A stretch of DNA of 55,368 bases from Melioribacteraceae bacterium (GTDB taxonomy: Bacteria > Bacteroidota > Ignavibacteria > Ignavibacteriales > Melioribacteraceae): contig JALSTI010000147.1 of assembly GCA_026983795.1 (NCBI GenBank), positions 1 through 55,368 on the forward strand. Reading direction: 5' to 3'. This document shows positions 11,012 to 55,019 of this stretch, piece after piece. The notes beneath the pieces are model-generated. The model saw only the letters and a program-made list of their open reading frames with translations. It had not been told where the DNA came from and searched no databases. Each line of letters opens with the position of its first letter. The stretch's first letter is position 1. The position numbers were made by a program, and so were the translations under genes.

Positions 11012-12547
11012 TTACTTCAGAAGCATCATTTTCTTTACTTGAATATTATTACCGGTTTTTAGTTCGTATAAATAAATTCCACTCGGTAAATTGCTTGCAT
11101 TGAATGTTACGGAATAATTTCCGGGAGATTGTTGTTTGTTAACTAATGTTACTAATTCTCTGCCAAGTACGTCATAAATTTTTAATTGCACTAGTTGAGA
11201 CGTTGCATGCAACGTCTTTACGGCAACCGGCACAGTATATTGGATTGTAGTTGTAGGATTAAATGGATTCGGGTAATTTTGTTCCAATTCGAACTTATCC
11301 GGCAATCCGGAATTTCCGGAATTTTCTATACCTGTCAGCTGAATTAACTGTCCGGTCTCAAAATCTCCTAAAAACCTTAATTGATTTATCACATTCCAAT
11401 TTTGACCGTCATCGTAAACCAATTGATATTCCAAACCCCAGTAAAACTTATTTTGATTTGGAACTATGTCCCCAAAGTTTGCTTTGGTTACATCACCAAG
11501 TTTAAGGTTAACTTCCAAAGTTAAACTATCCGGATGATGTTGAGTTCTAAAATCATATCCGCCGGCATTTTCTGCCATTGCAACAAAAGAATCGGGGTCT
11601 GCGGCAAACATCAAAGAATCGGCTAAGGGACGCATATTGGAAATCCAATTGAATTCATTTGCATCCATAGTATCAACGTAACTTCCGAAAATTGAGACCG
11701 TTACACTGTAACCTAAACTAGTGGAATCGCTTATATATTTAAAATTCCATTCATCAGATCTTGCTAAAGAGTCAATCGAATAAGCATCAACAAAATAAAG
11801 TAATGCGTCGTTCGGTAAATCCGCATTCTTTACACTATCGGCCAAAAATTTTGCTTTTTGAAAATTAACCGGTTCGGGAGAAGTAAGTAAAATATTAATG
11901 CCGGTTACATCCGCGTTATTTACAACAATCGAATCGGTTCCACCAATTAAATCTCCGAAACCGGGATCTATCATTCCGTCGTTGTTCATATCTTTGGCTC
12001 CGACCGGAAAATACGTCCCGTTTGGAACATGATTAATCGAAAAATTTCCGTTCGAATCCGAAATACCCGCATAAAGAATAACCGGATTTCCATGCGATAA
12101 ATCATCTGCCAGTAGGGCTACCAAAGTATTTTCTTTTGGAATTGAGGTGTCTTCAAACGAAACACTTCCCGAAACGCTGTATCCATTAAACACAGAATCT
12201 GTAGTAAATTCAATTAATACCGGATTTTGTAATCTGCTTCCATCAGCTGCAAAAACATCATGAAACAGCAAAAAATAATTTGTTTGTGGTTGTAAATCAG
12301 ATTTAAGATAAACGGTTTTAAGATCTGCACTGTACCAAATTTGAGGATCGGGACCTAAATTTGTAAATAAATAATTTCCCTCTTTGAATTTTTTTGTCGT
12401 ATCCAAAGCAGCGCTAAAAGTAACACTTACAGTATCGCTTAAGCCCACATTTGTACTTCCGTTTACAGGATTGGACTGTACAAACGTAATCTGCGCTTTA
12501 GCGGAAATGAAAGAAACAACTAAAAACAGTAAAAGTAATTTTTTCAT
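11012..12547 (-). CDS. secreted protein with Ig-like domain and type IX sorting domain
   Basis: A 511-residue protein. A signal peptide (to about residue 18, SAKAQ) is followed by an SbsA-type bacterial Ig-like domain (about 20-115) and a carboxypeptidase-regulatory-like beta domain with a possible calcium loop (DMNNDGMIDPG, near 188). The C-terminus is a type-A sorting domain for type IX secretion (ELEQNYPNPFNP ... SGIYLYELKTG ... KKMMLLK). GGAGGAAG precedes the ATG. Between TIQYTVP and VQLKIYD the domain carries an insert, VAVKTLHATSQL, encoded by a 20-base palindrome (annotated separately). Surface display or secretion is inferred; ligand unknown. Confidence 0.85.
   Translation of the reverse strand: MKKLLLLFLVVSFISAKAQITFVQSNPVNGSTNVGLSDTVSVTFSAALDTTKKFKEGNYLFTNLGPDPQIWYSADLKTVYLKSDLQPQTNYFLLFHDVFAADGSRLQNPVLIEFTTDSVFNGYSVSGSVSFEDTSIPKENTLVALLADDLSHGNPVILYAGISDSNGNFSINHVPNGTYFPVGAKDMNNDGMIDPGFGDLIGGTDSIVVNNADVTGINILLTSPEPVNFQKAKFLADSVKNADLPNDALLYFVDAYSIDSLARSDEWNFKYISDSTSLGYSVTVSIFGSYVDTMDANEFNWISNMRPLADSLMFAADPDSFVAMAENAGGYDFRTQHHPDSLTLEVNLKLGDVTKANFGDIVPNQNKFYWGLEYQLVYDDGQNWNVINQLRFLGDFETGQLIQLTGIENSGNSGLPDKFELEQNYPNPFNPTTTIQYTVPVAVKTLHATSQLVQLKIYDVLGRELVTLVNKQQSPGNYSVTFNASNLPSGIYLYELKTGNNIQVKKMMLLK
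11198..11217. repeat. in-frame 20-bp palindrome in sorting domain (copy 1)
   Basis: The sequence AGACGTTGCATGCAACGTCT is a perfect palindrome lying inside the coding region of the sorting domain. It is translated, on the minus strand, as part of KTLHATSQL. The same palindrome occurs at the same position of the sorting domain at 20205-20224. Confidence 0.9.
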
Positions 12548-12732
12548 TTTCTTCCTCCAAACGTTTTAATTGATTAGACATTTTTTAATTTTAACATCTT
12601 GCATCTATGTAAAATATACTTTAAGACAGAGGATTTTATACCATACAGTTATTTATCAACAAATTATTATCGATAAATATTTTAAAAAATTAATTTTTAA
12701 AAAAAGTTTCAAAAACTATTCCAGAATGTGAA

Positions 12733-13854
12733 TTAAAGAAAAGAAATCAATTCTCTTGTTGAAAGGACGCCAACGTTGGAAGTATTGGATAGTATAACAA
12801 TGGTTTCTTTTTTGCCCAGCTCTTTTATAAAGTAGGAACGGAAACCTTTCCACCAGCCGGTATGGTAAACAATTTTATTAGTTGAATCCGATGCATTTAT
12901 CCGCCATCCGTAACCGTAATTATCATAAATTCTTAAATCTTTATGCTGCGGTGTAAAAGCTTTACGCATTAAAGTATCACTCACAAATTTACCTTCGTCA
13001 ATTGCAACGCTCCACTTAAAAAGATCTTCCACGGAAGAATAAATTCCTTTGTCTCCAACCACACCGTTTAAGTAAGTATCGTCGGCTTTTCTTCTTCGTC
13101 TGATGTATCCTATAACTCCGGCTGTATTTTTCTTCCCTTTTTGCTTTTGATATACAAATGTATGCGTCATTTGCAAAGGGTTAAACACGGATTCTTTCAT
13201 AAATTCTTTATACGATTTTCCGGTAACCTTTTCAATTATATAAGCAAGAATAACATAATTGGTATTCGAATAATTATAACGGTGATCGGGTTTGTAATAG
13301 CGGAGCGGTTTATATTTTTTCATTAAATCAATTACATCTTTGTTGGTTATGGGAATTCTCTTATTCTTCCAATACTTATCGGCAAAGTACATATACTCTG
13401 GTAAACCCGACCTGTGAGCAAGCAGTAAACGTACAGTTATTCCTTTGTATGGAAAATTTTTGATAAACTTTCCCAGCGTATCCGACAGCGCTAATTTTCC
13501 TTGCTGAACCAAATGTAATATTGCATAAGAAGTTATCGGTTTGGTAAGCGAAGCCAGTTGAAACGAAGAAGAGATTTTTAATTTCTCTTTCTTTTTAAAG
13601 TTTGCATAACCGAATGCATTTTCATAAACAATATTTTTTCCGTTTCCGAATAAAACAGTGCCGTTAAACAATCCTCTTTTCGATCTGTTTTGGAAAAACG
13701 AATCAACTTTGGCGGATATTTTCTTCAAAGCCGGCGAGAGAACAGCGGTTTTTTTTATTTCTATTTTTTCAACCGGTTTTTTATTCGTGCTGTAACAAGA
13801 GCTGAACAGATATAGAGAAACGGATAAAGCGAGAGCAAGAAGAAATTTATTCAT
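12733..13854 (-). CDS. serine hydrolase, class C beta-lactamase family (lipoprotein)
   Basis: A 373-residue protein with a lipobox (LFSSC, Cys20), so probably membrane-anchored. The penicillin-recognising fold is shown by the SxxK motif SLTK (S102, K105), a YSN motif in RYNYSNTNY, and HTG near the C-terminus (YHTGWWKGF), the equivalent of KTG. Members include DD-peptidases, esterases and beta-lactamases; resistance should not be assumed. It lies 14 bases after the alpha/beta hydrolase gene on the same strand, so MOSC, hydrolase and this gene may form one unit. Confidence 0.88.
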   Translation of the reverse strand: MNKFLLALALSVSLYLFSSCYSTNKKPVEKIEIKKTAVLSPALKKISAKVDSFFQNRSKRGLFNGTVLFGNGKNIVYENAFGYANFKKKEKLKISSSFQLASLTKPITSYAILHLVQQGKLALSDTLGKFIKNFPYKGITVRLLLAHRSGLPEYMYFADKYWKNKRIPITNKDVIDLMKKYKPLRYYKPDHRYNYSNTNYVILAYIIEKVTGKSYKEFMKESVFNPLQMTHTFVYQKQKGKKNTAGVIGYIRRRRKADDTYLNGVVGDKGIYSSVEDLFKWSVAIDEGKFVSDTLMRKAFTPQHKDLRIYDNYGYGWRINASDSTNKIVYHTGWWKGFRSYFIKELGKKETIVILSNTSNVGVLSTRELISFL

Positions 13855-13868
13855 TTAATTCTAATAAT

Positions 13869-14540
13869 CTATTTTTTATTGTTCTTGATAAGATCAATTA
13901 ATTCAGATAATGCATTTACATCTATTTCATGTTTACCATCGAACAAAATAAGTTTGTAATTTAATCCCAATTTTTCCAATCGTTTCTTTTCTATTTCAAT
14001 ACTCTTTTCATCAATAAATTGATCTTGTTTACCAAATACAAAATATAGACCTGCATTTTTTATTTTTCCCAATTTACCGCTTAGTTCATTATTCCGAGTA
14101 AGCGAGCCGCCCCAAAGAATCAGATTATCAAATTTATTTTTTGAATTTAAAATCCATCTTGATGCAGTATGCGTTCCTTGAGAAAATCCGAGCAGATTAA
14201 TTTTCAGGTTGGAATTTAATGATTGAGGTATAACTCCGGAATAAATTTTTTCAAGATAATTTATATAATCGGATATTTCATTTTCACGGTCTTCGGTTGT
14301 CATCCATGTCGCTCCTACTTTACCGCTAAAACCTTTAATATAGAATTTATTCAGCGCTTCGGGCGCTACAATGAAATTACGGTCGGAGAATAACGGTTCA
14401 AATTTCTTAATAAAATTTTCCGCTAATTGTCCGTAACCATGTAGAAGAAACCAAACAGCTTCGGTTTTCCCGTTTAAAATTCCGGCCGTTACATATTTAG
14501 CCGTTTTGGAAACCGATATTAAATGCCTGTTAATTTTCAA
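13869..14540 (-). CDS. alpha/beta hydrolase (phospholipase/carboxylesterase-like)
   Basis: A 223-residue protein of the small carboxylesterase type. It shows the oxyanion segment FLLHGYGQ (about 32-38), the nucleophile elbow GFSQG (Ser120), an acid region near GKQDQFID (about 170) and the catalytic His in GKHEID (about 204). The Ser-Asp-His triad seems complete. The start overlaps the end of the MOSC gene by 11 bases, implying translational coupling. Substrate unknown. Confidence 0.85.
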   Translation of the reverse strand: MKINRHLISVSKTAKYVTAGILNGKTEAVWFLLHGYGQLAENFIKKFEPLFSDRNFIVAPEALNKFYIKGFSGKVGATWMTTEDRENEISDYINYLEKIYSGVIPQSLNSNLKINLLGFSQGTHTASRWILNSKNKFDNLILWGGSLTRNNELSGKLGKIKNAGLYFVFGKQDQFIDEKSIEIEKKRLEKLGLNYKLILFDGKHEIDVNALSELIDLIKNNKK

Positions 14541-15366
14541 AATTATTCCGTTCTTTTTTATACTCTAAAATTTCTAATCCGTCACCTAAATTTACAAAAC
14601 CTGAATTTCTTGCGATAAGATTTTGTCCGAATAATATTTTATTTCCGCTTCTTCTATATTTTGACAAAGTAGAAAGCGGTTCTTTATTTTTAATTCCCGT
14701 ATTTTGATCGATGGAAGGAATTACACACCGGGCACAAGGCTTAACAACGTCAAAAATTATGCTGCCGATTTTTATAGTTAGCCAATTATCCTCATCGTGA
14801 GCATTGCCTCCGGTAAAAACAAAATTAGGTCTGAACCTGTTAACAGGAACTTCTTCCGTGAGTTTTGAGTTAAGCAAATCCAGTGATGATTTACCAAGAA
14901 TCAAAAACGGGAATCCGTCGGCAAAACCTACAGTCTCGTTGTTATGCGCATATTTTTTATTGACATAACGTTTATATTTGTCTGATAACGTAACTAATCT
15001 GCATTCCGTACCGGTAGCAATCGACAGCCATCTATCGGCTTCTCCGGAAACGAAATTTGCTTTAACTTTATCGTCAAATATTTTTACCGTGGCAGTTTCT
15101 CCGGAATGTTCGTTAAACGGAATAAATAATTTGGGCAATGATTTTCTTTTGTGCGAAAGTTCCAATCCTTTCTCTTTAATTTCGGTATTTATCAAAGCCA
15201 TTTCCGGTTTTGTGCGTTGAGTAAGAAAGACATTGTTCCTATCAACAAGCATCCAACGGCGATCGAATTGCAGCCCTTCCGTTTCTACCCTTGCAGAATT
15301 CAAGCTAATTCCCGCAAGAGATTTTACAGGGTAAATAAATATTTCGGATAGTGTGTAGTCTTTCAT
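14530..15366 (-). CDS. MOSC domain-containing protein
   Basis: About 278 residues. An N-terminal MOSC beta-barrel domain (SEIFIYPVKSLAGISL, then FDRRWMLVD) is followed by the MOSC domain with the cofactor-binding cysteine region KPCARCVIPSID. The family binds molybdenum cofactor and is related to mARC N-reductases and sulfurases. I start it at the ATG at 15366. The reading frame stays open further upstream, but that stretch is a palindromic repeat unit of the neighbouring transposon, not part of the family. It overlaps the hydrolase gene downstream by 11 bases. Confidence 0.88.
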   Translation of the reverse strand: MKDYTLSEIFIYPVKSLAGISLNSARVETEGLQFDRRWMLVDRNNVFLTQRTKPEMALINTEIKEKGLELSHKRKSLPKLFIPFNEHSGETATVKIFDDKVKANFVSGEADRWLSIATGTECRLVTLSDKYKRYVNKKYAHNNETVGFADGFPFLILGKSSLDLLNSKLTEEVPVNRFRPNFVFTGGNAHDEDNWLTIKIGSIIFDVVKPCARCVIPSIDQNTGIKNKEPLSTLSKYRRSGNKILFGQNLIARNSGFVNLGDGLEILEYKKERNNFEN

Positions 15367-15385
15367 TTTACTTTTGTTACATAAT

Positions 15386-15419
15386 AAAGATGGCATCTCT
15401 TGAGGAGATGACATCTTTT
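15386..15419. repeat. palindromic unit A, downstream flank of the transposase gene
   Basis: An imperfect palindrome with arms AAAGATG-CATCTC and GAGATG-CATCTTT around a TTGAG centre. Together with unit B at 15457 it forms a pair repeated in the same orientation on the other side of the transposase gene at 16123-16194. It abuts the MOSC start region. Confidence 0.88.
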
Positions 15420-15456
15420 AAAGCTAAGAGCAACAAACCTTGTTTTTTGTTTTTCA

Positions 15457-15487
15457 AAGTTCCCATCTCTGAAAGAGATATGAACTT
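15457..15487. repeat. palindromic unit B, downstream flank of the transposase gene
   Basis: An imperfect palindrome beginning AAGTTCCCATCTCT and ending AGAGATATGAACTT around a short GAA centre. It lies ten bases beyond the transposase stop codon. It differs from the copy at 16164-16194 by a single base. Confidence 0.88.
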
Positions 15488-15497
15488 GGGAGAAACG

Positions 15498-16082
15498 TTA
15501 TTCTTCCATAACATAAAAATCTGCAAATACATTATCCCTTCTTTCTTGGTGGTATTCAATAAATCCATTAATCCCACTAAACCAATCCAACACCTCTTTT
15601 CTTTGTAATCTTGTTTTACCGGTGCCGATTATTTTTTTATACGAGCTAAATTTATACTTTGTAAAATCATTAATCATTTTATGATGTAACGGGTTGGCGT
15701 GAATATAATAAACCACTTGAATTAAATAACTATTATCAGTTATTACTTTTCTTTTAAAATTAGATTGAAATAAATTTCCTTTTCTATTTTGTTGTTTGTT
15801 AACAGCCATTGAATAAGAAATAAAAAGTTTTCTAAATTGTTCAGTTATAACTTCAGATTCATTTGTTTCCGGAGAAATTAATAAATGGAAATGATTCGGC
15901 AATAAACAAAAAGAATATGTTTTTATTTTATCACTCAGATAAAAAGAATATTTCTTCAAAAAGTATCTATAATTTCCATCATTAAAAAACAACTTATCCT
16001 TTCCAACAGCACGGTTATAAATATGGTAAAAATTATTTTTAAAAAATTTCGGATGATAATCTGTTCTTTTGGAGTTTATCAT
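15498..16082 (-). CDS. REP-associated tyrosine transposase (RAYT, Y1_Tnp family)
   Basis: A 194-residue single-domain HUH/Y1 transposase. It shows the RAYT opening FYHIYNRAVGKDKLFF, the metal-binding HUH motif LLPNHFHLLI (about 61-70) and, on the following helix, VVYYIHANP with the likely catalytic tyrosine. Unlike IS200 proteins, RAYTs do not sit in a classical insertion sequence; they move or process short palindromes near them. Here palindromic units A and B occur on both sides of the gene. The gene appears intact. Confidence 0.9.
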   Translation of the reverse strand: MINSKRTDYHPKFFKNNFYHIYNRAVGKDKLFFNDGNYRYFLKKYSFYLSDKIKTYSFCLLPNHFHLLISPETNESEVITEQFRKLFISYSMAVNKQQNRKGNLFQSNFKRKVITDNSYLIQVVYYIHANPLHHKMINDFTKYKFSSYKKIIGTGKTRLQRKEVLDWFSGINGFIEYHQERRDNVFADFYVMEE

Positions 16083-16122
16083 TTTACAAATTCCAAATGG
16101 AAATTATTATTTACAACCAAAC

Positions 16123-16154
16123 AAGATGGCATCTCTTGAGGAGATGACATCTTT
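16123..16154. repeat. palindromic unit A, upstream flank of the transposase gene
   Basis: Identical over about 31 bases to unit A at 15386, in the same orientation, 40 bases before the transposase start codon. The A-B spacing is only about 10 bases here, against about 38 bases on the other side. Confidence 0.88.
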
Positions 16155-16163
16155 GAAAAAATA

Positions 16164-16194
16164 AAGTTCCTATCTCTGAAAGAGATATGAACTT
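16164..16194. repeat. palindromic unit B, upstream flank of the transposase gene
   Basis: A palindrome starting AAGTTCCTATCTCT and ending AGAGATATGAACTT, one base different from the copy at 15457. It completes the second A-B pair around the transposase. Confidence 0.88.
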
Positions 16195-16227
16195 AAAATA
16201 CATACATTAAAAATATTTATTATCTGC

Positions 16228-16258
16228 AGCGATCATAAATAATCTGTGTTTATCTGCG
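16228..16258. repeat. degenerate CACAGAT-type intergenic repeat
   Basis: Read on the minus strand this holds CACGCAGATAAACACAGAT, a motif of the short CACAGAT/CGCAGAT repeats that recur in many bacterial genomes. A similar degenerate stretch lies at 52911-52955. Function unknown; low confidence that the two share an origin. Confidence 0.35.
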
Positions 16259-16300
16259 TGCCATTTTTTAAATTGTTTGAACCGGCTTTAATCTAACGTA

Positions 16301-16762
16301 CTAAATTTTCCCGTCGTATCTTAACCATTCTTGTGTTCTATGAAAGAACAGGACATATCCTCTAACTTGCAGCTTTCCGTTTTCCAGCCAAAGTTTGCAA
16401 TCGTAAGTTTTTCCTTTTTTAGGATCAAGAATATCGCCGTCTTCCCAAACATCATCATCTTCGTCATGTTCCAGTCCTGTAATAATCGTCATACCCAGAA
16501 CTTTTTTGTTATATCTCGGATCGTCCTCGTCGCATTTATCACAAACCGGATCCGGGTCTTCTCCCGGTTTTCTAAAAAGCTTAACAACATCGCCGTATAG
16601 TTTTCCGTCTTTAATATAAATTTTAACTACCGACTTCGGTTGGTGGGTTTCGTCGTCTATGGTTTTCCACAATCCCGTTATATCTTTTTGCTGGGCAAAT
16701 GCAAAATTAGTTAAAGTTAAAAGTATTGAGACAGTTAATACAAATAAGATGTTTTTTTTCAT
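16301..16762 (-). CDS. DUF2147 domain-containing secreted protein
   Basis: A 153-residue protein with a signal peptide (cleavage after TNFAFAQ, about residue 24), then a single DUF2147 domain: GLWKTIDDE at the start, a cysteine pair CDKCDEDDPRYNKK in the middle and a WLRYDG end. Function of the domain is unknown; it resembles lipocalin-like beta barrels and is often periplasmic. The ATG overlaps the stop of the DinB gene by 4 bases (ATGA), and a GGAG lies just upstream inside that gene, so the pair is translationally coupled. Confidence 0.85.
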   Translation of the reverse strand: MKKNILFVLTVSILLTLTNFAFAQQKDITGLWKTIDDETHQPKSVVKIYIKDGKLYGDVVKLFRKPGEDPDPVCDKCDEDDPRYNKKVLGMTIITGLEHDEDDDVWEDGDILDPKKGKTYDCKLWLENGKLQVRGYVLFFHRTQEWLRYDGKI

Positions 16763-17301
16763 TTTTTCTCCATTGTTAATTTTGCTAATAAAGATTTAAT
16801 TTGCTTTTGATGATGTTTAAAATGGGCGTCGAAAAAATCCAAAGTTCCCAAAATATTCATTTTACCCGCAATAGGATGTTTGAAAATATCTTTGTCAAGT
16901 ATTTCACCGGAAGTATTATTTATAAGGTCAATAAAAGAATTTCGTACGTTATTCCACTTAGAAGCTGTATTTTCAAAAGTATCAAAATCAGGCACATCCG
17001 AAACGTTTGCCGGCGCTTTAAGTTTTAGCGGCAGATTAAGTCCCCATTTAAGAATAAAAGCATTAAACCTCGATCGTAAGTTTGACTTATCAATATTTGA
17101 TTTGCTGCTTATTTTCCTTTTTATATAAACCACGGATAATTGTTCCGACTTTATCAAATGGTGCATGACTTGAATTATAGACCACTTATCCTTTTTTGGT
17201 TTAAAATTCAGTTCGTCCTCGCTTAAACTTTTAATTACGTTCAATAGAGTTAATCTGTCCTTTTCCAATTGTGCAATTTTATTTTGAAGTTTCGATTTCA
17301 T
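16759..17301 (-). CDS. DinB family protein
   Basis: A 180-residue four-helix protein of the DinB/YfiT type. Characteristic features are the LNFKPKKDKWSIIQVMHH segment (about 50-67) and the later DAHFKHHQKQIKSL, which together supply the histidines of a probable metal site. Members are thiol-dependent transferases or of unknown activity; many are induced by DNA damage. It is coupled to the DUF2147 gene by a 4-base overlap. Its upstream region is occupied by a miniature inverted-repeat element. Confidence 0.85.
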   Translation of the reverse strand: MKSKLQNKIAQLEKDRLTLLNVIKSLSEDELNFKPKKDKWSIIQVMHHLIKSEQLSVVYIKRKISSKSNIDKSNLRSRFNAFILKWGLNLPLKLKAPANVSDVPDFDTFENTASKWNNVRNSFIDLINNTSGEILDKDIFKHPIAGKMNILGTLDFFDAHFKHHQKQIKSLLAKLTMEKK

Positions 17302-17324
17302 GTGATTTCAAATATATTTTATCC

Positions 17325-17493
17325 AACTCAAGTTGACCGCTGAATTTTATAAACCGTTAAAACGGTTATGAAATTAAGGTTTCCGGCGTCCTTAACCCAC
17401 GACTTGAGTCGTGGGTGAATAAGCAAAACAAATAAACAATAGCCGTTTCAACGTTTTTTTAATAACTAAATTTTGAAACGGTCAACTTGAGTT
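17325..17493 (-). mobile_element. 169-bp miniature inverted-repeat element, copy 1
   Basis: A non-coding element bounded by terminal inverted repeats (AACTCAAGTTGACCG and CGGTCAACTTGAGTT). Inside are three hairpins: AACCGTTTTAACGGTT, CCCACGACTCAAGTCGTGGG and a CGTTGAAACG-centred one. It is about 92% identical by eye to the reverse complement of 22638-22805. It fills most of the 330-base gap between the DinB and amylase genes; the rest of that gap shows nothing else. Confidence 0.9.
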
Positions 17494-17629
17494 ATCTAAT
17501 ATAATCATAAAATTCTGAAAGTTAAAACACGTTGCTCTAAAACGAAACCTACAATGATTTGTAACATTATTATTATAAATTGGAATTATAAAAAAGTATG
17601 TAACGGCAAAAAGAAATATTTTTATCCAA

Positions 17630-19927
17630 CTACAGAGATACAGCAGATGAGCTCATTACCGCCAAGTGATTTCTATGCTTTACAATTATAAAATAATTTC
17701 CATGTGGAGCGGCAATAGGAATTTCGGTTCCTGTTCCGTTATCATCAACTATCCAGCCGTCTTTTCTTAAGAAAGCACTGCGGGAGGCAACAACCGGACC
17801 GTTGACCGAATCTTTTAATTGAACCAAGACCCAATCAACTACATTGGAAGGAACGCTTTTTACGGTTCTTTGATCTTCCGGATATGGTGAAGTTAGAGGA
17901 ATCTCGTTATTGGATTGCAATGCTGTGTTCATTAGATTAGATGATGAATTATACGGTCCCTGAAGAACTATTTTAATTTGTGCTAAAACTCCCTGTACCC
18001 AAACCGAATACGATCTCGGCGGAAGTTCTATTAAAACCTCATTATTTGAATTTACTTTTGTATAAGTTGAAAATGTATTGTCTATTAAATTAACAAATAC
18101 ATCACCCGGACTCACATTGGAAGTATTTATTCCTTGTAAAACTTTAAGCGTATCGGTACCGCCGGCATAATTAATTCCTACAATAACATCTTGCCCGGAC
18201 GGCGTATTCATTAATTGGTAAATCAAAGTTGTGGTATTAAAACCAGAAGAAAACGTTTGGCTGTAAGGCGTTCCGCTTCTGCTTAAATAATCCCTTGCAG
18301 ACGATCCGAAAATATACTTTTTGTGAATTGACATAAGTTTATCAATTTTATTTTTCATTCCGCTATTGGAAAATCCGCTTACGTAATAATAATCGGGATA
18401 AAAAACGGTTGGCAGTCCGACTTGATTATTCGTTAAAATATAAGCATATCCGAGAATGGGATCGTTTTGAATGTTGTTTTTTTCTTTGGCTAAATCATGG
18501 TTGTTTATAAAAGTTACAACATTAAATCCACTCATTCCCTCTGCATCTACCAGGCTCGAATTAAACACATTCCGCACATCATATCCGTAAGTATCGGATG
18601 CGTCTTTCAATGCATAGAACAAAGGGAAATCGAACACGCGGGGTATAATAGCTGCTTTTGTATCTGCATCCATGTAAGAATAAACCTGGTCAATCCAATT
18701 TTTAAGAGTAGCCGGATTACCATCAAAATACTCGCCGACGTTAAGTTGAGGATCTATTCCCAAGTTATGCAAATGATCGAACAAGTCGCCGACAAACTCG
18801 GGTGTAAAATGTTTAACCGCATCCATACGCAATCCTCTAATTCCCACATTGTTCCATAGCCAGTCGGTCCAAGTAAATAATGTATCCCTTGTTGCAGTAA
18901 CATACTGGTCATAATCGTAAAAGAACCAAGGCCAGTCCCAATCGCCGCAAAGCGTAGTAGTATTGGTATTATTGGGTTTAAAATTCTGCCAGTCCATAAA
19001 ACCTCGACCGCTGGGCATAGCGGTAAAATCGGTATAAGTTTGGTAAATGATATCAGGTTGAATATTTACCGTAGGATTTACACCGTCGTTATACCACAAT
19101 TCGTAAATATAATGATCAGAATATTGGGCATCGTTTGGTAAAACACAAAAGAGAGTATCGCCGGTTGTATTAAAATCTTGTGCGGTAAGAGATAAAGCAA
19201 ATTCGTCAATTTTACATCCCGATGAGTCGAGAGCCGCGAACCAATTTCTACCAAGAGTAACGTTATTATCCGGCTCGCCGCAACCGCCGCCGCCGTTAGG
19301 TTCAACTTCCGTCGTATCCGGGAGTCCTTGCCATCCCACTTTTCCCGTCCAAACGTAAAACTTATAAGTATTGCCGTAAAAATCCGGATTTTCTGTTTTC
19401 GATTTTATTTTAAAGTAATACGTGCCTGCACCTTTACCTGTCGATCCTCCTATCGGTAAAATAAATCTTACTCTATCCGACGGATAAGGGCAATTGCCCG
19501 GATATGTAAAATTTTCAATCCAATTTTCCACTGCGGGATTATTTTCGGCGGCACCGCCGTCGCGATGGTTGTATACCACATCCGCCACGGTATAAATTCC
19601 GTTGGAATTAAATGTGGCAATAAGATTATCCACATCTGTTCGGGATCCGAAACCGGTGGGACCCAAACCAAACCCGCCCAAGTCAAATAAATCTTTTGGA
19701 TCGTATCCGTTGCTGTTACTGCCGGAGCTTGTACGGGATAACGGAGGGAGCCAGACGTATGTAAAACCTGCATTTGCCAAATCAGATGCTTTGTTTTGCA
19801 ATGTATCCGCCCAGTTGGCTCCGTCCGTTGTTTTCGGATAATCCCAATACCAACCTTGGAAAAGAAAATCCTGTGCCGATAAATTTATTGTAAAAAATAT
19901 TAGCAGAACAGCAAAGTATTTTTTCAT
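17630..19927 (-). CDS. secreted alpha-amylase family (GH13) glycoside hydrolase
   Basis: About 765 residues. I start at the ATG at 19927, which gives a clean signal peptide (MKKYFAVLLIFFTINLSAQ). GH13 motifs in order: region I VADVVYNH, region II GLRMDAVKHF (catalytic Asp, about residue 368), region III NVGEYFDG (catalytic Glu, about 397) and region IV TFINNHD (about 475). A barrel insertion of about 180 residues (about 150-330) is beta-rich. After the catalytic region comes a C-terminal module (VDWVLVQLKD ... FLRKDG ... VKHRNHLAVMSS), and the protein ends without a type-A sorting domain. It presumably cuts alpha-glucans outside the cytoplasm. Confidence 0.93.
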   Translation of the reverse strand: MKKYFAVLLIFFTINLSAQDFLFQGWYWDYPKTTDGANWADTLQNKASDLANAGFTYVWLPPLSRTSSGSNSNGYDPKDLFDLGGFGLGPTGFGSRTDVDNLIATFNSNGIYTVADVVYNHRDGGAAENNPAVENWIENFTYPGNCPYPSDRVRFILPIGGSTGKGAGTYYFKIKSKTENPDFYGNTYKFYVWTGKVGWQGLPDTTEVEPNGGGGCGEPDNNVTLGRNWFAALDSSGCKIDEFALSLTAQDFNTTGDTLFCVLPNDAQYSDHYIYELWYNDGVNPTVNIQPDIIYQTYTDFTAMPSGRGFMDWQNFKPNNTNTTTLCGDWDWPWFFYDYDQYVTATRDTLFTWTDWLWNNVGIRGLRMDAVKHFTPEFVGDLFDHLHNLGIDPQLNVGEYFDGNPATLKNWIDQVYSYMDADTKAAIIPRVFDFPLFYALKDASDTYGYDVRNVFNSSLVDAEGMSGFNVVTFINNHDLAKEKNNIQNDPILGYAYILTNNQVGLPTVFYPDYYYVSGFSNSGMKNKIDKLMSIHKKYIFGSSARDYLSRSGTPYSQTFSSGFNTTTLIYQLMNTPSGQDVIVGINYAGGTDTLKVLQGINTSNVSPGDVFVNLIDNTFSTYTKVNSNNEVLIELPPRSYSVWVQGVLAQIKIVLQGPYNSSSNLMNTALQSNNEIPLTSPYPEDQRTVKSVPSNVVDWVLVQLKDSVNGPVVASRSAFLRKDGWIVDDNGTGTEIPIAAPHGNYFIIVKHRNHLAVMSSSAVSL

Positions 19928-20018
19928 AAAAATAAAGTGAAAATTTGTAATTGATATTTTTCGAATATACAAAAAAGGGCGAAATTATTTCGCCCTCCAC
20001 GTCACAACCGGGAAAAAA

Positions 20019-21167
20019 TTATTTTAATAAAATCATTTTACGAATTTGTGAAAAATTACCGGCGGTTAATTTATAGAAATAAATTCCGCTCGGTAAATTG
20101 CTTGCATTGAATGTTACGGAATAATTTCCGGGAGATTGTTGTTTATTCACCAATGTTACTACTTCTTTACCAAGTACGTCATAAATTTTTAATTGCACTA
20201 GTTGAGACGTTGCATGCAACGTCTTTACGGCAACCGGTACAGTATATTTAATTGTTGTTGCCGGGTTAAAGGGATTGGGGTAATTTTGACTTAAAGAAAA
20301 CTTGGAAGGCAATCCTAAATTAGCTTCTATAATGTTGGAATATTCATAACTTCCGTTAACATCAACTTGTTTTAGTCTGTAAAAATATTTTCCGGAAGCT
20401 GCCGTTTTATCGACAAATTTATATTCTTCCGGCGAATTACTGTTTCCGTGTCCCTTTACAAAGCCGAGCTCGTTCCACTTTCCTTTAGCGAAAGAGGACT
20501 TTCGCTCTACATAAAATCCGTAATTGTTTACTTCCGTTGCGGTTTTCCATTTAAGCTCGACATATTTATTTGAGATATTAGCGGAAAATGAGGTAAGTTC
20601 TACGGGAAGTGATTGGTTAACTGTAAATGTTGCTTGGTAATTTAGACCTCCTCTACTATCATAAATTGTTGATGCAGCGTCTACACCATTAGTGTAGATT
20701 ACTGCATAAACTTCTAAAGTATAATCACCAGATGACAAAGTACTTCCGCTTAATATATCTACGCCCTTATCGGTAGTATTACTACCAGCTATATCAGTTC
20801 CCCATTGTTGATCACCTGCATGTCCGTTAACATTATCAATTTGAAACGCATAATTTATTTCAGTAAAAGAACCGCTTGGGCTACCTACAGGATAAATTCT
20901 GTAAAACAATGATGCACCTGTTACATCTGTTCCATTGTTTTTATAGCTTTTTAATTGCCCTCCCAAAACCAAAGAATGATTAGTTAAATCAAATGAACCA
21001 AGGTTTGCACCTTGAAAATCCGGATTGGCTGTTGAGGCTCCGAGATCATAATAAGTATTTCCGGCTCCATTAGCATTAACTATAGCAAAAGAATCAAAAA
21101 TACCCCCGCCGGCAAATAGACTAATGTTCATACAAAATAATATTAGAACTATAAAAATTTTTCTCAT
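20019..21167 (-). CDS. secreted protein with type IX sorting domain, unknown N-terminal domain
   Basis: A 382-residue protein. A signal peptide (to about FAGGG, residue 22) leads to a roughly 170-residue beta-rich domain that I do not recognise. A fibronectin-like module follows (LPVELTSFSANISNKYVELK ... YSNIIEANL), common in these secreted proteins, then the type-A sorting domain (FSLSQNYPNPFNP ... SGIYFYKLTAG ... KMILLK). AGGAGGAAAA precedes the ATG. Two palindromes are translated within it: one in the fibronectin-like part (ERKSSFAKGK) and one in the sorting domain (KTLHATSQL). It lies just upstream of the amylase on the same strand; a shared role in glucan binding is only a guess. Confidence 0.8.
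   Translation of the reverse strand: MRKIFIVLILFCMNISLFAGGGIFDSFAIVNANGAGNTYYDLGASTANPDFQGANLGSFDLTNHSLVLGGQLKSYKNNGTDVTGASLFYRIYPVGSPSGSFTEINYAFQIDNVNGHAGDQQWGTDIAGSNTTDKGVDILSGSTLSSGDYTLEVYAVIYTNGVDAASTIYDSRGGLNYQATFTVNQSLPVELTSFSANISNKYVELKWKTATEVNNYGFYVERKSSFAKGKWNELGFVKGHGNSNSPEEYKFVDKTAASGKYFYRLKQVDVNGSYEYSNIIEANLGLPSKFSLSQNYPNPFNPATTIKYTVPVAVKTLHATSQLVQLKIYDVLGKEVVTLVNKQQSPGNYSVTFNASNLPSGIYFYKLTAGNFSQIRKMILLK
20205..20224. repeat. in-frame 20-bp palindrome in sorting domain (copy 2)
   Basis: AGACGTTGCATGCAACGTCT, identical to the copy at 11198-11217 and at the same place in the sorting domain. It is translated in the same frame as KTLHATSQL. Confidence 0.9.
20487..20506. repeat. in-frame hairpin AGCGAAAG-AGGA-CTTTCGCT
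   Basis: A perfect 8-bp stem with a four-base loop inside the fibronectin-like module of the sorting-domain protein. On the coding strand it is translated as ERKSSFA. A related hairpin (CAAAAG-AGGA-CTTTTG) lies between genes at 45843-45862. Confidence 0.75.
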
Positions 21168-53372: not shown

Positions 53373-55019
53373 TTATCGAAGAAGAATCATCTTTTTAGCT
53401 TGTACAAGTCCGTTAATACGCAACTGATAAATATAAATTCCGCTCGGTAAATTGCTTGCATTGAATATTACTGAATAATTTCCGGGAGCTTGTTTTTCAT
53501 TCACCAATGTTACTACTTCTCTGCCCAATATATCAAACACCTTTAGGCTTACAAAAACCCCCCTTATATTCCCCCCTTTGCCAAAGGGGGGATTGAGGGG
53601 GGTTGAGATTGAATATTGGATTGTAGTAGCAGGATTAAACGGATTAGGATAATTCTGAAACAGCTTGAATTCACCCGGAATATTCGATTCATCCGAAACG
53701 GATGTTAATGTAAAATGTAAATCGATATTATTAAATTCTGTTGATGAAGGTGCAATATCGAAAACGGATGTGCTGACCGCATCCGTGAAGCCAATACTTT
53801 GTGCAATTAATTGATATTTACCGTAAGGCAAATGATTAATTCTAAACGATCCGTTTTGTTTGGGAATTGAATAATACGTCAATTCATCGAAGTCAATATT
53901 TTTAGCAAACAGAATAATATCTGATACATTCACGGAATCGTTCGGATTTGAAGCATCCGCCGTAATGGAACCGCTTATTATCCCGCCCCCGTAAGAAGAA
54001 TCACGTTTTAAGATTATGCTGTTATTATCAACGGTATTTTGAATTAGTATGGAATCCGTCTGCTGCCAAAAAATAGCAGGATCGTTTGTATTGCTTACAT
54101 ATGCGGGCAAGTAAAAATCAGAGAACGCTTGAACATAATAATACCCCGGCTCAATAATATCATCAATAGCAAAAGTCCCGTCGTTATTTATGTTTGCCGT
54201 ATAAGATTGAATTACACCGGCTAATCCGGCGGCTCTGGCGGAAAGTTTTGTTGGTGTATGTTTTCCTTTTCGTACTACTATAATCCCTTTTCGAACGTTT
54301 GCTTTTGTACCGGCGTCAATAACTTTACCGAGAACTCTATTAGGAGTTTGAATTTTTTGAATAAGGTTAAAATTAATTTCCTTAACGGAATCCTGCTCAA
54401 TCAATAATTTTTTTGCATTGTAAGGATCGTATTGATTATCATAAAAAGTGAAATAATAACCGGCTTTTTCCGCTGCAACGGTGTAATTACCTTGCGGTAA
54501 TTTTTTTGAGAACCTCCCGCCGGCATTTGTATAAGTTGTATCGAACAAGTAGCTGCCGTCATAATAAAAATAAATTTTTGAATTATTTAATGGAGAGTTA
54601 TTCTCATCCAAAACCGTTCCCCCCACGGTTCCGGATTTATTTTGATCGTCATAAAATCTTATACTAATTTTCAAATCTTCTTGATCGGAATAACCAGAAT
54701 AAATAACTTTCATTGTGTCTAAAGTATCTTGCGATGTAACCATAAAGTAACCGGCTAAAAGACAATCCATTTTCAAAGTATCGCCCGGCGGAATTGTAAC
54801 CGGATATTGCCATTTTTTGTCGAAGCGGATAAAATAAAAATTGTTGTTATATCTAATTGTGTCAATTATTAAATCTTGATTGCCTCCGTTAATAAACAAT
54901 ACATTTTCCAAACGATCGAAAATATTACTAAATTCAATGGTATTCGGTTTAAGTACTAATTTAGGTTGCGCGTTTATTGCACCGACTAATGTAAGTAAAA
55001 ATATTATAAGAGCTTTCAT
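53373..55019 (-). CDS. secreted protein with carboxypeptidase-like repeats and type IX sorting domain
   Basis: About 548 residues from the ATG at 55019, which gives a signal peptide (MKALIIFLLTLVGAINAQ). A choice-of-anchor/HYDIN-like beta domain (LKPNTIEFSNIFDRLENVLF) is followed by several carboxypeptidase-regulatory-like domains (GTVGGTVLDENNSPL, RVLGKVIDAGTKANV, GGGIISGSI). The type-A sorting domain ends the protein (FKLFQNYPNPFNP ... SGIYIYQLRING ... KKMILLR). Between TIQYS and VSLKVFD it carries TPLNPPFGKGGNIRGVF, encoded by a C/G-rich palindromic repeat. Surface-display protein of unknown role. Confidence 0.85.
   Translation of the reverse strand: MKALIIFLLTLVGAINAQPKLVLKPNTIEFSNIFDRLENVLFINGGNQDLIIDTIRYNNNFYFIRFDKKWQYPVTIPPGDTLKMDCLLAGYFMVTSQDTLDTMKVIYSGYSDQEDLKISIRFYDDQNKSGTVGGTVLDENNSPLNNSKIYFYYDGSYLFDTTYTNAGGRFSKKLPQGNYTVAAEKAGYYFTFYDNQYDPYNAKKLLIEQDSVKEINFNLIQKIQTPNRVLGKVIDAGTKANVRKGIIVVRKGKHTPTKLSARAAGLAGVIQSYTANINNDGTFAIDDIIEPGYYYVQAFSDFYLPAYVSNTNDPAIFWQQTDSILIQNTVDNNSIILKRDSSYGGGIISGSITADASNPNDSVNVSDIILFAKNIDFDELTYYSIPKQNGSFRINHLPYGKYQLIAQSIGFTDAVSTSVFDIAPSSTEFNNIDLHFTLTSVSDESNIPGEFKLFQNYPNPFNPATTIQYSISTPLNPPFGKGGNIRGVFVSLKVFDILGREVVTLVNEKQAPGNYSVIFNASNLPSGIYIYQLRINGLVQAKKMILLR
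53556..53604. repeat. in-frame G/C-rich palindrome in third sorting domain
   Basis: An inner palindrome CCCCCCTTTGCCAAAGGGGG (53571-53591) is nested within outer AACCCCCC and GGGGGGTT arms. The whole stretch is translated in the sorting domain as NPPFGKGG. It sits at the same site in the domain as the 20-bp palindrome of the other two sorting domains. Confidence 0.9.

Follow-up and report, generated by a model that had tools for sequence, protein, structure and literature searches.

We consider it likely that the 20-bp palindrome shared by two genes of the window (the whole stretch of 55,368 nucleotides analysed here) belongs to a double-foot GTAG REP of the RAYT type, tolerated in permissive loops of the C-terminal sorting domains (CTDs) of T9SS cargo proteins and spread from one CTD to another. 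The core, AGACGTTGCATGCAACGTCT, occurs exactly twice in the window even when 3 mismatches are allowed, and its absence from 100 shuffles of the window at the same tolerance (<=3 mismatches) rules out a chance match [Table 1]. The original prediction had placed an identical palindrome in frame in the same loop of two T9SS CTDs, and this was borne out, the coordinates being exact and PF18962 being found in both domains with scores of 46-48 bits (cut-off 27). Both copies are on the minus strand and translate as ...VPVAVKTLHATSQLVQLKIYD... inside this C-terminal Por_Secre_tail domain; the full element on the coding strand at the first site is GTAAAGACGTTGCATGCAACGTCTCAAC, which corresponds to GTAG...CTAC with one change per foot. 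The host proteins are otherwise different, P0001 being a protein of 511 aa with a Big_5 domain and P0002 one of 382 aa.

Table 1. Palindromes, sorting domains and RAYT-like gene of the window
Feature	Position	Strand	Remarks
20-bp palindrome core AGACGTTGCATGCAACGTCT	11198-11217	(-)	Exact match, in frame
Second AGACGTTGCATGCAACGTCT copy	20205-20224	(-)	Core and feet identical to the copy at 11198-11217
T9SS CTD of ORF 11012-12547	11015-11305	(-)	PF18962; palindrome in beta2-beta3 loop
T9SS CTD of ORF 20019-21167	20022-20312	(-)	PF18962, TIGR04183; palindrome in beta2-beta3 loop
Third T9SS CTD of the window	53376-53681	(-)	beta2-beta3 loop occupied by another repeat, STPLNPPFGKGGNIRGVF
Palindrome TCCCCCCTTTGCCAAAGGGGGGA	53570-53592	(-)	Unrelated repeat type, in beta2-beta3 loop of third CTD
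RAYT-like gene between the two palindrome-bearing genes	15498-16082	(-)	NF047646 at 59.7 bits, under the cut-off of 80

The flanks of the two copies, said in the original prediction to be nearly identical over 100 or so bases, agree at 17-20 of 20 positions per 20 bp (ungapped) over ~160 bp around the palindrome, and their identity falls to background beyond ~150 bp to one side of it and ~80 bp to the opposite side. Two points of the earlier description had to be amended. The strands on either side of the insert are not joined directly in the usual domain; the ordinary loop at this site has ~4 residues, and the insert brings a net gain of ~8 residues (24 nt). Nor is a single palindrome characteristic of the site: all three CTDs of the window hold a palindrome in the beta2-beta3 loop, that of the third CTD being a different one whose repeat has four exact family members in the genome, all of them at CTD places. 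In an AF2 model of the CTD near 20 kb (mean pLDDT 71.9, built on four sequences, with weak fold matches), the insert lies between strands 18-25 and 37-44 and is modelled with low confidence; the top Foldseek match, itself weak (E 1.6e-3), is a NucA substrate in a T9SS complex, and a PDB sequence search with the CTD found nothing. An intergenic palindrome of another type, ACCCACGACTTGAGTCGTGGGT, lies at 17395-17416 of the window.

The source genome (3.35 Mb in 312 contigs) has 90 TIGR04183 places by profile search and a T9SS gene matching the SprA profile at 877 bits. The genome-wide search for the palindrome proposed with the original prediction, which like our other counts of this kind rests on pattern searches, located AGACGTTGCATGCAACGTCT at 13 places with <=3 mismatches (6 exact, 7 near) and its reversed control at 0. 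Eleven of the 13 copies are at CTDs, on contigs C147 (twice), C62, C22, C218, C99, C312, C85, C67, C177 and C290, the domain on C99 being cut by the contig end and that on C177 consisting of its downstream half only. Both remaining copies lie on C237, the first within a RAYT-like gene and the second at the extreme end of the lexA-like ORF upstream of it. Another repeat (TQNFA, NPPFAKGG or QGEG) occupies the same loop in ~14 further CTDs, a count that is approximate, a looser earlier parse having included a second QGEG row (L109). Among the 65 CTDs that could be parsed, the short loop is the commonest form (31), and the 34 longer loops comprise NPPFAKGG (11), LHATS (8), TQNFA (3), QGEG (1) and other inserts (11). 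Of these 34 inserts, 18 contain a near-perfect palindrome with arms of >=9, against 0.085 expected on shuffling.

That several CTDs of one genome share the insert could mean that it is a normal, inherited part of the sorting domain. This reading is scarcely credible in view of the prevalence of the short loop among the parsed CTDs, the excess of palindromes among the inserts and the unrelated repeat types held by the same loop. In the congeners G318 and G277, the loop of the P0001 orthologues is short and free of the insert, and the insert is thus derived in the P0001 gene; the orthologues of P0002 have another insert in G277 and none in G313. In the CTDs of relatives, most of which were found through the DNA pattern, an approach favouring palindromic copies, the insert-type segment was not seen encoded by non-palindromic DNA. 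It is also highly improbable that the palindromes act at the RNA level, as hairpins near the 3' end of cargo mRNAs that are retained because they tune stability or translation. An 8-bp stem with a 4-nt loop is predicted in both LHATS mRNAs and fold z-scores are -0.66 and -1.87 for these and -2.61 for the third CTD; however, the fold of the two LHATS mRNAs is unremarkable relative to shuffles, pairs are broken in 6 of the 11 copies, and most of the ~90 CTDs are devoid of a recognised palindrome.

Some copies of the source genome have peculiarities of their own. In the CTDs on C22 (L001) and C218 (L005), the palindrome is followed by tandem copies of AACGTCTCAACGAGC encoding RATSQRATSQ, apparently a local amplification from the right arm of the palindrome. 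In the C67 and C290 copies, a change in one arm has a matching change in the opposite arm; the probability of this by chance is ~5% each for three substitutions, and the observation is suggestive only.

Of 57 genomes of the source's family, 22 contain the pattern GTAGAGACG-core-CGTCTCTAC, and none gave a match when the reversed control was run on the same set. The element is usually 28 bp long, its cores are many and different, mostly self-complementary, and it is open (no stop) in two of three frames. By its letters, the window element would be a slightly decayed copy of this pattern, matching the double-foot REPs of subclass 2.4 TnpA-REP (RAYT), which have 5' GT[AG]G and 3' C[TC]AC and occur in frame inside their own transposase genes (PMC6006769). 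Feet of this form are present in the two copies on C237, in the copy on C89 and in most copies of the family; the window copies read GTAA...CAAC and are described here as probable decayed or copied descendants of the full element. The long palindromic stem is dispersed in several copies per genome, as the 6 exact and 7 near copies of the source genome illustrate.

The full elements resemble double-foot REPs in having a long perfect stem that bears 5' GTAG and 3' CTAC as its feet; in contrast to those, for which insertions were reported within tnpA-REP genes and unrelated genes were cited (PMC6006769), the elements seen here have T9SS CTDs as their main protein-coding home, and the window copies have one base changed in each foot. 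Intragenic GTAG/CGTC REPs are likewise short in-frame palindromes in genes, and their authors argue that they persist in flexible loops, but they were found in varied hosts, with DNA repair and replication genes prominent, and mostly at different sites (PMC3733652), whereas here one domain type is occupied at two fixed loops in many genes. The kinship with the palindromic elements of Rickettsia suggested by the original prediction holds insofar as those too are in-frame palindromes adding peptide to many proteins, and fails at the level of the family. Compared by their description in PMC3733652 rather than by sequence, the Rickettsia elements RPE-4 and RPE-6 lie in varied genes and are assigned to the CGTC type, to which no transposase was linked (PMC3733652); here the full elements bear GTAG tags and are present in RAYT-like genes.

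One of these genes, on C237, is a candidate transposase of the element. It contains ATATCCGTAGAGACGTTGCATGCAACGTCTCTACGGATAT, a perfect 40-bp palindrome with the window core, in frame after the HUH motif MPNHIHG, and the gene on C89 has another core at the place matching this insert. Both are called RAYT-like because their matches to NF047646 (46-56 bits in the case of C237) fall below the curated cut-off of 80. On C237 (L121, C237:1500-4500), the RAYT-like gene is directly downstream of the lexA-like gene on the same strand, the two occupying 1017-1571 and 1603-2259, and a palindrome of the same family provides the lexA-like ORF with its C-terminal tail, NVETLHATSLPRQNG. The RAYT-like gene of the window was considered as a source of the element and rejected, as the repeats on either side differ in type and the gene has no internal palindrome; it is probably not the cognate transposase of the window palindromes. 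The same imperfect palindrome pair (AAGATGGCATCTCTTGAGGAGATGACATCTT; AAAGTTCC(C/T)ATCTCTGAAAGAGATATGAACTT) is found on both sides of this gene, at 15387-15487 and 16122-16194, and gene and flanking repeats together resemble another REPtron-like unit.

The identity profile around the insert suggests how it came to be shared by so many CTDs. In the 60 nt adjoining the insert, identity is 77.0% between CTDs that share an insert and 66.7% between those whose inserts differ, a value as high as the former arising in 0 of 2000 label shuffles; in the distal 90 nt the corresponding values are 62.7% and 59.4% (p 0.05). In a tree of the CTD minus its insert, poorly resolved with 2 of 62 inner branches starred, the eight LHATS rows are scattered, with 8 changes against a shuffled mean of 7.7, and the inserted domains taken together do cluster. 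Duplication of whole domains as the sole cause is unsupported by both the tree and the local identity profile. Since CTDs with a common insert are unusually similar beside it and scarcely so further away, short-tract copying of the insert and its flanks among a subset of CTDs would fit these data, with weak branch support. The original prediction had envisaged a mobile palindrome that landed in a tolerant loop, followed by copying of the entire domain. The first part gains from the mobile-family structure, the candidate transposase and the insert-free P0001 orthologues of two congeners; copying between CTDs is likewise supported, same-insert domains being most alike beside the insert, and copying of the whole domain is not, given the local similarity and the scattered rows of the tree. 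The high DNA identity anticipated for palindrome-bearing CTDs is accordingly seen within 60 nt of the insert and hardly at all distally.

The other possibility raised at the time, that the palindrome helps sorting domains recombine, seems to us unlikely. The palindrome would in that case be a recombination hot spot, as a cruciform or a RAYT nick site, that drives exchange of CTDs between cargo proteins and for this reason resides in a multi-copy domain. The peak of identity next to the insert in same-insert CTDs, the way inserts are shuffled on a tree built from the remainder of the domain, and the GTAG/CTAC feet of full elements, which are like those cleaved by RAYTs (PMC6006769), are all compatible with such a role; however, the unrelated NPPFAKGG inserts show the same local excess of identity, so that a GTAG palindrome is not required for it, and the window copies have lost the foot sequence. 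The only direct hint is a single junction at C177:8977-8996 (L018/L090), where, within the palindrome, unrelated sequence gives way to the downstream half of a CTD, the right arm being kept and the left lost. This case is anecdotal, and the junction may reflect either a rearrangement that broke at the element or a dead gene fragment. An extension of the same idea, to which we give similarly little credence, is that palindrome-bearing loops turn the CTD into a moving cassette, the exchange of CTD halves between cargo genes being initiated where a RAYT nicks, or a cruciform breaks, the loop palindrome; if this were true, a selfish element would shape which proteins the bacterium displays or secretes.

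In the source's family, the 96 distinct copies among the matches listed, with context labels assigned by script, comprise 28 in CTDs, 13 in frame in RAYT genes (including those on C237 and C89), 3 at ORF ends, 51 in noncoding DNA and 1 in an FN3-like domain of a presumed T9SS cargo; copies from the same genome do not count as independent, and G019 alone accounts for eight of those listed. Apart from the RAYT-gene copies, CTDs are thus seen to hold nearly all listed in-gene copies of the family, and they do so in two loops only, beta2-beta3 (TIKYxIP to VxLKxYD) and beta5-beta6 (before LPSGVY), with strands numbered after solved domains (PMC4804311; PMC11285876) and assigned here by motif matching. 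None of the 28 listed CTD copies has the element in the beta3-beta4 loop. All of them are in the VETxxxxSL frame; RAYT copies use both VETxxxxSL and RDxxxxVST. At beta5-beta6, the 3' junction is nearly always (C/T)TACC, corresponding to the L-P of LPSG, and the net change of the loop in some copies is +5 or 0 residues instead of a clean 28-nt insertion, which argues that landing there involved loss of target sequence.

Outside the family, 58 listed copies include 2 in CTDs, 5 in RAYT genes, 5 inside other ORFs (the T9SS-like L276, three ORFs of genome G583, and L259), 1 at an ORF end and 45 in noncoding DNA. The restriction to CTDs and RAYT genes therefore holds for the source's family only, the element being found inside other ORFs beyond it, at least in G583. 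A scan of wider genome contigs with a T9SS-context pattern gave one locus, in Ignavibacteriae bacterium NAT134. We note that the large and presumably secreted proteins at L199 (G215:C96) and L276 (G183) share a full element at one loop of an FN3-like domain (GFxxxR...W); this loop, encountered in two different families, is a possible third tolerant site. Other repeat peptides (ARHLERSREI) are found in the CTD beta5-beta6 loop of relatives (L142, L149 (G039)), and several relatives have glycine-rich inserts after NYPNPF.

The loops occupied by the element fall where mutational work on RgpB predicts: lengthening of the beta5-beta6 loop by mutation leaves export and processing of that protein intact, beta2-beta3 varies in length among solved CTDs, and beta3-beta4 is needed for secretion (PMC11285876). 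The CTD loop thus appears to tolerate the insert, and the use of the same loop by repeats of unrelated type suggests that the site itself is tolerant, not that one transposase prefers it. A further scenario assumes that RAYT-like insertion strongly prefers a CTAC/TTAC-like tetranucleotide present by coincidence in both loops, each CTD having received its own copy. We regard such independent landings as quite improbable. They could account for one genome having different cores at the same loop (LHATS with TQNFA here, LHATS with LHGAS in G215), for the common frame of all CTD copies and for the near-constant beta5-beta6 junction, but not readily for the repeats without GTAG feet (NPPFAKGG, QGEG) that fill the same loop, nor for the flanks shared by same-insert CTDs, including the foot changes GTAA/CAAC common to several copies. 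With a CTD tree so weakly resolved, several independent insertions may have taken place in the source genome.

The reading that we favour, tolerance of the element in permissive CTD loops and its spread among CTDs, would proceed as follows. A double-foot GTAG REP of the subclass 2.4 RAYT kind would land in the beta2-beta3 loop of a T9SS CTD. The gene would stay open, because the element is stop-free in two of three frames and lengthens the loop by a net 24 nt, and would acquire ~8 residues (VKTLHATSQ) in a surface loop apparently tolerated by the secretion machinery. Given the ~90 homologous CTDs in the genome, short-tract recombination would then carry the insert, along with the sequence immediately beside it, from one CTD to others, and the same process with other cores would have affected CTDs elsewhere in the family, also in the beta5-beta6 loop. 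The element's sequence identity and distribution, the loops it occupies, its absence from orthologues and the local profile of identity are direct observations; mobilisation of the full element by a RAYT, copying by recombination and neutrality for secretion are what we infer.

In-frame REPs, the argument from flexible loops and the presence of such elements in tnpA-REP genes are already known (PMC3733652, PMC6006769). No report linking REPs to T9SS CTDs was found in the literature searched, the coverage of which excluded preprints and most subscription journals, and we are apparently dealing with a known element in a niche that is new and unusually concentrated. The finding shows where in-frame REPs can live, namely in a multi-copy export signal with two tolerant loops. 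It also provides a natural map of insertion tolerance in the T9SS CTD over many proteins, with beta2-beta3 and beta5-beta6 occupied and beta3-beta4 free of the element among the matches listed. Odd repeat peptides in database proteins, such as VETLHATSL, find an explanation as element-encoded sequence, and annotators should be aware that part of many T9SS cargoes is mobile DNA and not domain. More generally, these CTDs offer a tractable example of selfish DNA domesticated, or at least tolerated, as protein sequence.
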